Made by a program: the position numbers and the translations under genes | NCBI RefSeq assembly: GCF_020567705.1 | Contig: NZ_JAJDJU010000014.1 | Location: forward strand, 1 to 64,000 | DNA: 64,000 nucleotides | Source: Acidocella sp. KAb 2-4 | GTDB lineage: Bacteria; Pseudomonadota; Alphaproteobacteria; Acetobacterales; Acetobacteraceae | Direction: 5' to 3' | In this document: piece after piece, positions 11,956-29,530 of the stretch | Layout: every line of letters begins with the position of its first letter | How positions within the stretch are numbered: the stretch's first letter is position 1 | Notes under the pieces: generated by a model | What the model was told of the DNA's origin: nothing | Seen by the model: the letters and a program-made list of their open reading frames with translations, nothing else | Database searches by the model: none

Positions 11956-12249
11956 GTCCGTTCTTTTATAAAGCCCGCCGGTCAATCATAGACCGGGCAA
12001 CGTAAACAGGCCAACGATGGCCCCTTCTGGCTTGAGAATCCATTGCTGTGGCGCTCGTTCTGGCCGGCTTCACGCGTGTTTCGTCTTCCGTCTGTTTGGT
12101 CACCACTGCGCTGATGAAACCAGCAAGCACCACCGGCCATAGTTCAAGTCGAAGCTTTTTGATAAAAAACTTGTGAGCCCGGATAAACAGGTTTCCATCC
12201 ACTTTTGTCTCGGTTCCGGGCCAGAGAGTAAAAGTTGGGCTGGGCGCTT
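11956..12249. other. Intergenic region between divergent blocks
   Basis: About 290 bases without a credible gene. A hairpin CCGGTC/GACCGG (11978-11996) lies just upstream of the response regulator and could be a leader or operator. On the minus strand an A/T-rich TTTATAAAAG follows it, near where a promoter is expected. I see no other recognised feature; small frames here have no family signature. Confidence 0.4.
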
Positions 12250-12295
12250 CATGACAGGTTTTAGTCCGGAGGAGAGGCTTCCGGCGCCTGTCATG
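12250..12295 (+). promoter_or_regulatory. Structured leader A (paired with leader at 13625)
   Basis: A perfect 9-bp inverted repeat (CATGACAGG at 12250-12258, CCTGTCATG at 12287-12295) encloses a smaller hairpin built on TCCGGA and TTCCGG. It ends 10 bases before the DUF932 start and includes the GGAG that would serve as ribosome binding site at its 3' foot. Almost the same structure, with compensating base changes, precedes the ParB gene. It may control translation or transcription of both. Confidence 0.6.
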
Positions 12296-12305
12296 GAGAA
12301 GTGCC

Positions 12306-13523
12306 ATGGATATCAATACGTCTACCGCGGTGGCGGTTGTAGGGGCGAACGCTGGCCGGGCTGGGTTGGCGGGTTTTAAGGTCGATGTCAGCCGGGGTGA
12401 GCGGCTGGGGCGGGTGTCGTCGGAATGGTTTTCGCGGCCCGACGATGAGCGGTTTCTGTCGCTGCCGGAGTTGTATGACGCGGTGAGGGCCCGTGCGGAG
12501 AGGGCTGAGGCGCGGACCGTGGAGAGCCGAGCCATCCGGGTGGAGGCGCGGCGTGACGATGGCGATCGGCTGGCACTGATTGTGCCAGGACAGGAGCGGC
12601 CGGTGGTGCCGACCCATTGGAGTTTTGCCCAGCTTTGCGGGCTGGTGGGTGCGCCGACGGGGTATATGCGTGAACTGCCCGCGCCGCTGGCGGGGATTAA
12701 TCTGCAACATGGACTGCTCAATCACCGCGCCGAGCTGGTGAAGACGCTGGAGACCAACGACGGGCGGGTAGAACTGCGCGCCGTTACTGGTCCGGATTAT
12801 GGGCGCATCTGGGACCACGAGCTTGTCTCGGCGGTGATGCGGATCGCCGGCAATGGCACCGGCGATACCGCCTGGAAAGTGCCGGGCGTGTTGGACTGGG
12901 CGACCATGACGCACAACCCGTATGTGGATGTGACGAAGGAGACGACAACGCTTTATGCCAGCGACCGGGATGTATTTCTGTTTCTGGTCGATGATACGCA
13001 CCCGATCGAGGCGGGGCGGTTGCCGAATGGTGAACCGGATCTATATTTTCGCGGGTTCTATTGCTGGAACAGCGAGGTCGGCTCGAAGACCCTGGGTATC
13101 GCGTCGTTTTATCTGCGCGCGGTTTGCGCCAATCGCAACATCTGGGGCGCCGAGGATTTTCAGGAGATCAGCATCCGGCATAGCAAATTCGCGACCCAGC
13201 GTTTTGCGCATGAGGCAGCACCGGCGCTGCGGCGATTTGCCAATTCCTCGCCCGCGCCGTTCGTGGCGGGGATTAGAGCCGCGCGGGAACAGATTGTCGC
13301 GCGCCAGGATGATGAGCGCGAGAGTTTTCTGCGTAAGCGCGGTTTCAGCAAGGGCGAGACAGCGAAGATTATCGCCACCGTACTGGAGGAGGAAGGTCAT
13401 CCGCCGGAGAGCGTGTTCGACTTCGTGCAGGGCATCACCGCGCTGGCGCGCTCGCGCCCGCATCAGGATGCCCGGCTGGAGCTGGAGGGCAAGGCGAAGC
13501 TGCTGTTGGAACGGGCGGCGTAA
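12306..13523 (+). CDS. DUF932 (phage/plasmid-like) protein
   Basis: A 405-residue protein of the DUF932 family, common on alphaproteobacterial plasmids and ICEs. It is of unknown function; some relatives sit near recombination or anti-restriction genes. The recognisable core runs from about residue 100 to 330, with the typical WEVP-like segment (here TAWKVPGVLDW), a central YFRGFYCWNSEVG stretch and RAVCANRNIWG. It opens the maintenance block, is followed by ParB and carries the same leader structure. No catalytic residues can be assigned. Confidence 0.85.
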   Translation: MDINTSTAVAVVGANAGRAGLAGFKVDVSRGERLGRVSSEWFSRPDDERFLSLPELYDAVRARAERAEARTVESRAIRVEARRDDGDRLALIVPGQERPVVPTHWSFAQLCGLVGAPTGYMRELPAPLAGINLQHGLLNHRAELVKTLETNDGRVELRAVTGPDYGRIWDHELVSAVMRIAGNGTGDTAWKVPGVLDWATMTHNPYVDVTKETTTLYASDRDVFLFLVDDTHPIEAGRLPNGEPDLYFRGFYCWNSEVGSKTLGIASFYLRAVCANRNIWGAEDFQEISIRHSKFATQRFAHEAAPALRRFANSSPAPFVAGIRAAREQIVARQDDERESFLRKRGFSKGETAKIIATVLEEEGHPPESVFDFVQGITALARSRPHQDARLELEGKAKLLLERAA

Positions 13524-13624
13524 CGGGCGCGTTGTTCTTCGTGGTTATGTTTGCCGTGGGCCGGTTTTGGTCCACGGCATTTTTTATGGAGCCGGGCAGA
13601 GAGGCAGAGGGCGGAGCAAAAATT

Positions 13625-13671
13625 CGTGACGGGTTATAGGTCAGGAGAGTGGCTCCGGGCCGCCCGTCATG
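13625..13671 (+). promoter_or_regulatory. Structured leader B (homologue of leader at 12250)
   Basis: The arms CGTGACGGG and CCCGTCATG pair over 9 positions with one G-T wobble. An inner hairpin GGAG...CTCC lies between. Compared with leader A, one pair changes from A-T to G-C and another from A-T to G-T while pairing is kept. The remaining sequence is closely similar, including the GTCATGGAG foot. It stops 11 bases before the ParB start. The covariation favours a conserved RNA or DNA structure over chance similarity. Confidence 0.6.
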
Positions 13672-13682
13672 GAGTTTTTCCC

Positions 13683-15818
13683 ATGGCCAAAACTGTTCAG
13701 AAAATCACGCTCAGTGCCTCGCGCGATATCCCATTCGATCGGCTGGTGCTCTCGCAATCCAATGTCCGGCGCATAAAGGCCGGCGTTTCGATCGAAGAAT
13801 TAGCGGCGGATATTGCGCGGCGCACGCTGCTGCAAAGCATCACGGTCCGTCCCGTGCTGGATGAGGCGGGTGCCGAGACCGGCATGTTCGAAATCCCTGC
13901 CGGCGGGCGCCGCTACCGCGCGCTGGAATTGCTGGTGAAGCAAAAGCGCCTGGCCAAGACCGCGCCGATCCCCTGCGTTGTGCGCACCGAGGGTATCGCA
14001 GAGGAGGACAGCCTGGCGGAGAATGTGCAGCGTGCGCCGCTGCATCCGCTGGATCAGTTCCGGGCGTTTCAGGCGTTGCGCGAGAAGGGGCAGAGCGAGG
14101 AGGAAATTGCGGCGGTGTTTTTTGTCGCGGTCTCGGTGGTGAAGCAGCGGCTGCGGCTGGCTGCCGTCTCGCCCCGGTTGCTGGAAGTGTATGCTGAGGA
14201 CGAGATGAACCTCGACCAGCTGATGGCGTTCTCGGTCAGCCCGGACCATGAGCGCCAGGAGCAGGTGTGGGAGGCGCTGCAGCGTTCCTACAACAAAGAG
14301 CCTTACCAGATCCGCCGGATGCTGACCGAAGGGGCGGTGCGCGCCTCTGACAAGCGGGCACAATATGCCGGTGAGGATTATATCGCGGCAGGTGGGCCGA
14401 TCATGCGCGATCTGTTCCAGCAGGATGATGGCGGCTGGTTGCAGGATGCCGGGCTGCTGGTGCGCGTGGTGGCGGAAAAGTTGGAGCGCGATGGCGATGC
14501 TCTCCGCGCCGAGGGCTGGAAATGGGTCGAAATGGCACCTGAATTTCCGTATGGCCACAGCTACGGCCTGCGGCGCATTCCGGGCACGCGCCGTCCGTTG
14601 ACCGATGAAGAAATCGCTCAGGTCGAGGCGTTACGGGTCGAGGCTGAGCAACTCGAGGAGGAAGCCGCCGTGGCGGATGAAGTCTCCGATGATGCCGATG
14701 CTCGCCTCGCGGAAATCGAGGCGGAGATTGACGCGCTGACCCAGCGCCCGCCGGTGTATGACCCTGCCGAAATTGCCATGGCAGGTGTGTTTGTCAGTAT
14801 CGACGGCAGTGGCGCGCTGCGGGTGGAACGCGGCTATGTTCGCCCCGAGGATGAGCCGGTGGTGGTTGAAGAAGCCGATGAGGTGGATTTGGCAAGCGAG
14901 GGCAGTGGTATCGCAAATGATGATAGCGATCCCGCCATGCTGGAAAGCCGCATCATCGTCGCGCATGTCGGTGATGCGGCCGATCCGGAGCCGGAGGAGG
15001 AAGACGGCATCAAGCCTTTGCCCGACCGGCTGCTGACGGAGCTGACGGCCTATCGCACTCTGGCGCTGCGCGAGGCGTTGGGCCATGAGCCCGGTATTGC
15101 TTACCTCGCCCTGCTGCACGCGCTGTGCCTGCGGCTATTCTACCGCTACGGTGCCGAATCCTGCCTGGAGATTGAGGCGAAGAGCGTGATGTTCGGCGCC
15201 CAGGCGCAGGGCTTGGCTGATACGCCCTTGGCGGCACGGGTTGATGCGCGGCACGAGGCCTGGGCGGCGCAATTGCCGGAGGATACCAGCGAATTATGGG
15301 AGGTTTTGGCGGCGTTCGACAGCGACAGCCGGGAGGCCTTATTCGCCCATTGCGTGGCGCTGACGCTGAATGCCACGCATGACGCCTATAATCGCCGCCC
15401 CCGGGCGCTGGCGCATGCAGGGCGGCTGGCTGAGACGATGACGCTTGATCTGGTAGCTGCTGGGTGGGTGCCGACGGCGGAGAATTATTTCGGCCGGGTG
15501 ACGAAGGCGCGCATTCTGGAGGCGGTGCGCGAGGCTAAGGGCGAGCAGGCCGCGCAACGGCTTGAGGGGCTGAAGAAGGACGCCATGGCCGAGGCCGCAG
15601 CGCAGGCGCTGGCGGGCTCTGGCTGGCTACCAGAGGCGCTGCGCACGAAAGGCGTGGAGACCATGACGATGTGGGCAGATTCTGTGGCAGAAGCCACGCA
15701 TTGTGCCGTCGCCGCCGATGCCAGCGCGGATGTGGCAGACGAGGTGGTTGAGGCTGCCGATCTTCCATCCGCTGAAGACGAAGCACAGATCGAGCCGCAC
15801 GAGATCGCGGCGGAGTGA
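13683..15818 (+). CDS. ParB/RepB/Spo0J-family partition-type protein, long form
   Basis: A 711-residue protein. Residues about 10-115 are a ParB/Srx-like N-terminal domain with the CTP-binding motif GGRRYRAL and ENVQRAPLHPLDQ. A helix-turn-helix region follows near 125-170 (SEEEIAAVFFVAVSVVKQRLRL). The long C-terminal half has acidic linkers and a second folded part seen in plasmid and ICE ParB proteins of alphaproteobacteria. The ATG at 13683 follows the leader hairpin and fits the ParB start; the open frame extends 44 codons further upstream without family similarity. No parA is adjacent. The ParA-like ATPase is 17 kb away, so this protein may instead act as a nucleoid-type regulator of element genes. 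Confidence 0.9.
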   Translation: MAKTVQKITLSASRDIPFDRLVLSQSNVRRIKAGVSIEELAADIARRTLLQSITVRPVLDEAGAETGMFEIPAGGRRYRALELLVKQKRLAKTAPIPCVVRTEGIAEEDSLAENVQRAPLHPLDQFRAFQALREKGQSEEEIAAVFFVAVSVVKQRLRLAAVSPRLLEVYAEDEMNLDQLMAFSVSPDHERQEQVWEALQRSYNKEPYQIRRMLTEGAVRASDKRAQYAGEDYIAAGGPIMRDLFQQDDGGWLQDAGLLVRVVAEKLERDGDALRAEGWKWVEMAPEFPYGHSYGLRRIPGTRRPLTDEEIAQVEALRVEAEQLEEEAAVADEVSDDADARLAEIEAEIDALTQRPPVYDPAEIAMAGVFVSIDGSGALRVERGYVRPEDEPVVVEEADEVDLASEGSGIANDDSDPAMLESRIIVAHVGDAADPEPEEEDGIKPLPDRLLTELTAYRTLALREALGHEPGIAYLALLHALCLRLFYRYGAESCLEIEAKSVMFGAQAQGLADTPLAARVDARHEAWAAQLPEDTSELWEVLAAFDSDSREALFAHCVALTLNATHDAYNRRPRALAHAGRLAETMTLDLVAAGWVPTAENYFGRVTKARILEAVREAKGEQAAQRLEGLKKDAMAEAAAQALAGSGWLPEALRTKGVETMTMWADSVAEATHCAVAADASADVADEVVEAADLPSAEDEAQIEPHEIAAE

Positions 15819-27508: not shown

Positions 27509-29530
<2,022 letters not shown>

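Follow-up and report, generated by a model that had tools for sequence, protein, structure and literature searches.

By analogy, the described systems nearest in role to the hairpin leader analyzed here are EGeRS1 of pLS20 and the gonococcal parAB RNA switch. The leader stands immediately upstream of two genes, one encoding a DUF932-type protein and the other a ParB-like protein, in a stretch of 64,000 nucleotides (nt) from the alphaproteobacterium Acidocella sp. KAb 2-4 (contig NZ_JAJDJU010000014.1, positions 1 to 64,000), referred to below as the window. EGeRS1, from the pLS20 family of Bacillus conjugative plasmids, is described as a structured element located directly upstream of the ribosome-binding sites of establishment genes, preceding several presumed genes of this kind, including ardC, and marking a regulon (PMC8708921). 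According to the same description it is approximately 400 to 750 bp long and contains many inverted repeats (PMC8708921), whereas our leader is about 80 nt long, consists of one hairpin and an AGAG-NN-AGAG element, occurs in Alphaproteobacteria, and shows base-pair covariation that has been tested; the two are likened by description and not by sequence. The parAB (and traH) RNA switch of the gonococcal genetic island likewise has, in the 5′ untranslated region of a partition-protein gene on a transfer element, a stem-loop that covers the ribosome-binding site, and deletion of inner legs of the hairpin before parA is reported to raise reporter expression more than 10-fold (PMC8716806). As described, this switch differs in being found at single loci and in having two stem-loops, of which breaking the first acts in the opposite direction; AGAG signals are absent from the part of the description examined, and here too the likeness is one of description (PMC8716806).

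Two further elements invite comparison. The Frpo and ssi elements resemble our leader in being hairpins upstream of early anti-defense genes of conjugative elements, but they are described as single-stranded-DNA promoters (PMC11541004). In our leader, by contrast, it is the mRNA strand that is under selection, and the hairpin overlaps the ribosome-binding site. radC RNA (RF01754) is associated with DNA-handling and anti-restriction genes. It is described, like our leader, as a proteobacterial cis-acting RNA (PMC2864571), but it has 149 positions and another fold. Membership of the leader in the radC family was rejected, in that searches of 10 genomes gave one match over the cutoff, away from any leader. 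That match is L272 (G747:C1:442886-443026), which scores 64.9 bits in a genome that has five leader matches elsewhere. No description of the leader was found in the open-licence literature, a scope outside which most subscription papers lie. Taken together, the results presented here point to one shared, apparently undescribed control of DUF932, ParB-like, and ArdC genes at the RNA level.

Structure and covariation of the leader

The two window leaders, at 12225-12305 (DUF932) and 13600-13682 (ParB), belong to one RNA family, and each ends at the start codon. Their parts are as follows.

12225-12234, plus strand: AGAG-NN-AGAG element of the DUF932 leader, AGAGTAAAAG, 7 of 8 matches, kept at the same distance in relatives
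12249-12296, plus strand: hairpin of the DUF932 leader (match to covariance model R1 at 12243-12301, 65.8 bits)
12249-12258 with 12287-12296, plus strand: outer stem of the DUF932 leader
12266-12272 with 12278-12284, plus strand: inner stem of the DUF932 leader, with pentaloop AGAGG at 12273-12277
12295-12298, plus strand: GGAG, the probable ribosome-binding site for DUF932, with the GG engaged in the foot of the stem
13600-13609, plus strand: AGAG-NN-AGAG element of the ParB leader, AGAGGCAGAG, exact
13624-13672, plus strand: hairpin of the ParB leader (match to covariance model R1 at 13618-13677, 68.4 bits)
13624-13633 with 13663-13672, plus strand: outer stem of the ParB leader
13641-13647 with 13653-13659, plus strand: inner stem of the ParB leader, with one mismatch (13643/13657) and pentaloop AGTGG at 13648-13652
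13671-13674, plus strand: GGAG, the probable ribosome-binding site for ParB, with the GG engaged in the foot of the stem

A preliminary description of this DNA had reported a 9-position stem about 10 bases before both genes, with the ribosome-binding site at its foot, and this was confirmed base by base: the arms are CATGACAGG and CCTGTCATG (12250-12258/12287-12295) in the DUF932 leader and CGTGACGGG and CCCGTCATG (13625-13633/13663-13671) in the ParB leader, and the start codons, at 12306 and 13683, lie 10 and 11 bases past these stems. The sequence likewise agrees with its statements that between the two copies one pair changes from A-T to G-C and another from A-T to G-T with pairing kept, and that an inner hairpin is retained in both. 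One fold was computed for each leader, with an energy of about -31 kcal/mol, and against dinucleotide shuffles the folds score z values of -3.88 (DUF932) and -3.02 (ParB). Two copies alone are nevertheless weak evidence, because a loose definition of the hairpin (any 8-bp stem with an inner hairpin) is satisfied about as often by shuffled upstream DNA, with 80/95 and 66/69 real sequences matching and 86/95 and 61/69 in one shuffle of each set.

We therefore rest the case for structure on relatives. Searches for relatives of the DUF932 protein found them in 313 plasmid records and gave 584 confirmed stretches in genomes; among the best 80 of these, which were taken, the best relatives were from Acidocella and other Alphaproteobacteria. 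Eight plasmid regions were inspected together with their annotation. The same leader was found upstream of ParB and DUF932 genes in dozens of loci. A first alignment of 56 leaders was drawn from 77 upstream stretches that matched a loose sequence pattern, which itself partly demands the motif; removal of 21 near-copies and of one misplaced row (L049), and manual insertion of the window DUF932 leader, gave the final rows. The consensus fold has 17 pairs, with 94.6% of cells paired, compared with 86.4% in shuffles (0/500 as high) and 31 to 48% when the register of the arms was slid. Double-change cells numbered 84, against 22.9 in shuffles (0/500 as high) and 7 to 26 in slid registers. Ten of the 17 pairs changed on both sides, a figure that is less telling, since 20 of 500 shuffles also reach 10.

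Further leaders were then collected from loci and genomes with covariance model R1, and a new alignment was built from 91 nonredundant ones that had not gone into the model plus the two window copies (93 rows, dereplicated by position-wise comparison at 90%). Identity to the rows of the model stays below 95% for all 91 and reaches at least 90% for 5. In this set 95.9% of cells are paired (shuffles, 88.7%; slid registers, up to 49%), 13 of the 17 pairs show pairing-preserving changes on both sides (shuffles, mean 7.6; slid registers, 7 to 10), and there are 113 double-change cells (shuffles, 34.4; slid registers, 23 to 41), the slid-register comparison being one that favors a structure derived from the same alignment. 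Not one of 500 shuffles was as high on any of five measures. The covariation check proposed in the preliminary description, run here on the leaders of relatives (13/17 pairs changed on both sides, 0/500 shuffles), thus upholds, in the 56- and 93-leader alignments alike, its suggestion that the paralogous leaders are under selection for structure. Homologous loci lacking the stem, which that description gave as a refuting observation, do exist for DUF932 (61/95); where the stem is present, most substitutions preserve pairing (95.9% of cells). With covariation on the mRNA strand and a fixed place directly upstream of genes, the leader has two properties of a cis-acting RNA. It is a genuine, widespread, and apparently unnamed leader family of establishment-type genes.

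The RNA strand and the ribosome-binding site

Read on the mRNA strand, wobble pairs in the stems greatly exceed A-C mismatches. The 56-row alignment, which precedes the model, contains 154 G-U or U-G cells and 15 A-C or C-A cells; the corresponding counts are 249 and 26 in the 93-row alignment and 405 and 33, beside 2,031 Watson-Crick cells, among 150 nonredundant leaders fitted to the model. Duplex DNA should be indifferent to G-U versus A-C, and a hairpin on the template strand would be expected to show the reverse asymmetry. Because G-U cells so far outnumber A-C cells on the mRNA strand, the selected structure is RNA and not duplex DNA.

This bears directly on the idea that the element acts as DNA, either as an Frpo-type single-stranded-DNA promoter or as an operator for ParB, with the RNA irrelevant. 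Single-stranded-DNA promoters are described as driving early anti-defense genes of some conjugative plasmids (PMC11541004), and the relatives of ParB and KorB type recovered by a fold search bind DNA. An Frpo-type promoter, however, calls for a hairpin on the template strand, and the coding strand is the one favored here, tolerating G-T but mostly not A-C (154:15 and 405:33). The leader also ends at the ribosome-binding site with fixed spacing, a gap of about 30 nt separates its outer arms, which is not the layout of a short operator, and a simple sigma-70 scan revealed no promoter-like site at either window leader. A DNA promoter or operator was rejected on the wobble asymmetry and this simple scan, and we regard a DNA-level element as extremely improbable.

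A leader that is structured and located at the ribosome-binding site could also be a sensor of a ligand or of temperature. Searches of the whole window against Rfam 15 returned a TPP riboswitch only, away from the leaders; at an E value of ≤5, three matches at the window leaders were far below the gathering score, two of them overlapping leaders. Eight further leader loci gave none at an E value of ≤1, and three more (L103, L106, and L183) yielded one leader overlapped by a match of 19.6 bits, the family concerned having a gathering score of 90. Folding energies of about -31 kcal/mol are high for an RNA thermometer, and the genes are neither metabolic nor heat-shock genes. A riboswitch or thermometer is therefore very unlikely.

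The ribosome-binding site is built into the leader. GGAG lies inside the matched stretch in 150/150 leaders, with its last copy 7 to 9 nt before the start codon in 134 of them. The two lowest stem pairs, which involve the GG of GGAG, are each kept in 87 of the 93 leaders, and the bases opposite this GG are U or C; neither pair ever changes on both sides, which is what a GG held constant by the ribosome would produce. Across the 150 leaders, the mean predicted probability of being unpaired falls from 0.38 at the start codon to 0.19 at GGAG and 0.09 at its GG; for GGAG it rises to 0.40 once the upstream letters are shuffled, and the real leader falls below its own control in 83% of cases. The models thus predict occlusion of the ribosome-binding site. 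The preliminary description had suggested that this may be a translational or autoregulatory switch. Paralogous leaders shaped by selection on structure, whose foot carries the ribosome-binding site, agree with an element of translational control; a switch, or binding by ParB or DUF932, would be a further step.

The pentaloop is AGAGG in 90 and AGAGT in 25 of the 150 leaders. Beyond the hairpin reported previously, AGAG-NN-AGAG is a second conserved piece: it lies 16 to 20 nt before the start of the model in 110/149 leaders (0.0 in shuffles), namely, 33/40 DUF932, 64/92 ParB, and 13/17 ArdC leaders. Columns farther upstream carry at most 0.6 bit in the DUF932 and ParB leaders and at most 0.8 bit in the small ArdC set. 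Conservation therefore extends from AGAG as far as the start codon, like a 5′ untranslated region. An extra conserved hairpin around AGAG-NN-AGAG was considered and rejected; it looks persuasive in single leaders, but its own arms pair no better than swapped arms.

We consider it likely, on the strength of these sequence comparisons, that the leader acts in cis to restrain translation of an establishment-type regulon until it is opened. In the mRNA the element folds into an outer stem of 10 pairs and an inner stem of 7, mostly with an AGAGK pentaloop (K, G or U). The foot of the outer stem pairs with the GG of GGAG, so that translation would be low while the hairpin stands and higher once it opens. 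AGAG-NN-AGAG and the AGAGK loop would be likely recognition signals for a trans-acting factor, either an RNA-binding protein or an antisense RNA, and this factor would set the hairpin open or shut, such that the genes might be expressed jointly, for instance for a short time following arrival in a new cell. We infer the lowering of translation by occlusion, the trans-acting factor, and the timing at establishment; the family itself, its covariation and strand, its position at the ribosome-binding site, and its gene partners are observed.

Alternatively, the hairpin and purine tract might form a constitutive module that protects the mRNA or evens out expression across hosts, with no switch. A near-invariant hairpin with fixed spacing fits a fixed module, as does the fact that no linked regulator gene was recognized. 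Pairing of the GG in the foot, however, is needless for protection and should cost translation, yet it is kept in 87/93 leaders, and the strict loop and AGAG-NN-AGAG suggest recognition. We regard such a module as unlikely.

Genes behind the leader and its spread

Across all searches there were 282 distinct matches (counted at E values of ≤1, 0.05, 0.01, or 0.001, depending on the search, weak ones included), of which 157 precede ParB, 55 DUF932, and 32 ArdC, making 244 for these three gene families; another 21 precede other frames, and 17 are followed by none. ArdC is a third family with the leader, beyond the two described previously; one member was identified by Pfam (ArdcN, MPTase-PolyVal) and the others by similarity to it. 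As with EGeRS1, then, the same element precedes ardC and other genes. ArdC of R388 is reported to be required in the recipient (PMC7213743), and the DUF932, ParB-like, and ArdC genes are probably used by alphaproteobacterial mobile DNA to settle in a new cell.

The remaining matches also cover an AlpA-type regulator and two small protein families. The latter, of approximately 172 and 128 amino acids, have no Pfam assignment (one member of each was scanned) and are candidate members of the regulon; they were seen at L007:7769, L009:7766, L149:15817, L261:3333, and L263:1211 and at L145:9737, L160:9647, L162:10144, and L217:6317.

The leader was found in 29 of 385 genomes of the class and in 53 of 150 of the order. 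In a sample of the phylum it was present in 35/398 genomes, 34 of them in the same class and the other a weak partial match, the number of sampled genomes from outside the class not being stated. It follows one subfamily of ParB closely. Among starts of ParB proteins at least 50% identical to the window protein, 52/53 have the leader, the one miss being at a contig edge, compared with 0/16 below 50%, a cutoff that was set after the identities had been seen. In the 385 genomes, tallied by eye from tables, a leader match is present in 21/21 whose best ParB is at least 50% identical; where the best ParB is more distant (14 genomes), a match occurs in 3 (G162, G148, and, weakly, G288) and is absent from 11. 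Five leader genomes lack a ParB match at an E value of ≤1e-30: in G096 and G326 the leader precedes a ParB-labeled frame, in G065 it precedes DUF932, and in G247 and G206 it precedes no clear frame. Among protein-defined DUF932 starts, 34/95 have the leader. The loci compared here, and in the comparisons of within-locus similarity and of other leaders below, are not independent, some being close relatives.

Possible control in trans, other lineages, and the surrounding element

Several observations weigh against a leader that restrains translation of a regulon. Of GGAG, the conserved stem takes in the GG alone, and the start codon has a predicted unpaired probability of 0.38; GGAG is less accessible than in its own shuffled control in 83% of leaders and not in all. 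Sixty-one of the 95 DUF932 relatives lack the leader, 38 of the 282 matches stand before other frames or none (partly weak chance matches), and this genome has only two strong matches, the next scoring 21.2 bits (ArdC was not searched for here). Leaders found with R1 lean toward R1, although the effect is far outside the controls. In addition, no regulator was recognized among the families most enriched near leaders in 122 loci, most of the smaller clusters being unannotated.

This enrichment, obtained by clustering mechanical frames in the 86 loci with and the 36 without the leader, is led by toprim (39 versus 2), DUF2493/YspA-like proteins (36 versus 3), strawberry-notch helicase (27 versus 2, by Pfam), and ParB (57 versus 17); a linked small regulator gene was considered and set aside on the clusters that were annotated. 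Leaders of different genes resemble each other slightly more within a locus than between loci, the similarity being 0.685 versus 0.671 for DUF932-ParB pairs (47 loci; p = 0.004) and 0.755 versus 0.717 for ArdC-ParB pairs (26 loci; 0/2,000 permutations), which fits either a shared factor or shared descent.

Such a factor could be the ParB-like protein itself, or DUF932, binding the AGAG signals in the leader RNA and repressing translation of its own and coregulated genes. The leader tracks one ParB subfamily, as the counts of 52/53 and 0/16 and the 21 genomes indicate, the 29 leader-bearing DUF932 loci with a ParB all have that subfamily (5 more have no ParB within the locus), and the greater likeness of same-locus leaders would also be accommodated. 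Against this, the ParB fold search returns DNA- and CTP-binding relatives, with no RNA-binding protein among the 50 matches listed of 123; G065 has a DUF932 leader and no ParB match at the threshold given above; and leader matches also occur with distant best ParB proteins (G162, 49%; G148, 36%; G288, 32%, a weak match only). Other lineages keep related proteins with different leaders, binding of ParB to the hairpin as DNA is disfavored by the G-U/A-C asymmetry, and the linkage of ParB and leader may be plain coinheritance. We consider autoregulation of this kind doubtful and continue to favor restraint of translation by a leader that responds to some trans-acting factor.

In loci whose ParB is less than 50% identical to ours, the DUF932 and ParB genes share another upstream sequence in 14/15 cases. 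These shared leaders are 60 to 188 nt long, with 82 to 98% identity between the two upstream regions of a locus and scores of 60 to 307 in the 14 loci (19 in the fifteenth; control pairs, at most 24). Sharing of a leader between DUF932 and ParB therefore appears to be a general pattern, in support of a regulatory role. Two classes were distinguished, B (L019, L027, L031, L032, L054, and L063) and C (L002, L021, L023, and L060); whole-genome pattern scans for them gave one to three copies per genome, and a scan of 8 loci of these classes against Rfam returned no match.

More tentatively, and as a possibility we hold to be the less likely one, the system might represent a translational form of zygotic induction, in which an RNA-binding repressor in cells that hold the element would shut the ParB, DUF932, and ArdC messages and a fresh recipient would express them in a burst; the leaders of other lineages would do likewise, so that RNA-level timing of such genes would have arisen several times.

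The RNA family, with its strong covariation and its place outside Rfam 15, marks likely cocontrolled genes of alphaproteobacterial plasmids and integrative elements. It groups DUF932 and the ParB subfamily, both poorly understood, with an established anti-restriction gene, can serve as a label for further candidate establishment genes, and makes the timing of early genes in such elements testable.

The window appears to belong to an integrative conjugative element. Between 33166 and 51133, quorum-sensing LuxR/LuxI genes lie beside a Trb transfer operon, a TraG-type coupling protein, and a TrwC-type relaxase, and a DUF932-ParB-toprim-YspA block occupies 12.3 to 20.7 kb. The leader-bearing genes and the site between them are as follows.

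12306-13523, plus strand: DUF932-type gene, 405 amino acids, the first leader-bearing gene (PHROG 1362)
13552-13585, plus strand: terminator-like hairpin and T run between the DUF932 and ParB genes, about 14 nt before the ParB AGAG element
13683-15818, plus strand: ParB-like gene, 711 amino acids, the second leader-bearing gene (Pfam ParB_N; Noc/Spo0J/KorB-like N-terminal part)

Terminator-like sites are not commoner in the stretch than in shuffles (2 found; shuffle mean, 2.3). The DUF932-type protein scores 21.3 bits against Pfam DUF932, just below the cutoff of 23, and has no sequence relative with a solved structure at an E value of ≤0.1; its structure model was poor (25 sequences; mean pLDDT, 43.9) and was left unused. 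PADLOC gave no match for five proteins of the block. The ParB-like protein was modeled with a mean pLDDT of 83.9 and a pTM of 0.57; a fold search with the model matched Noc, Spo0J, and KorB, all 32 matches at an E value of ≤0.001 being ParB-like, and its sequence profile matches relatives of the same three proteins within positions 10 to 201. The TPP riboswitch mentioned above lies at 29405-29524 on the minus strand and scores 80.2 bits.

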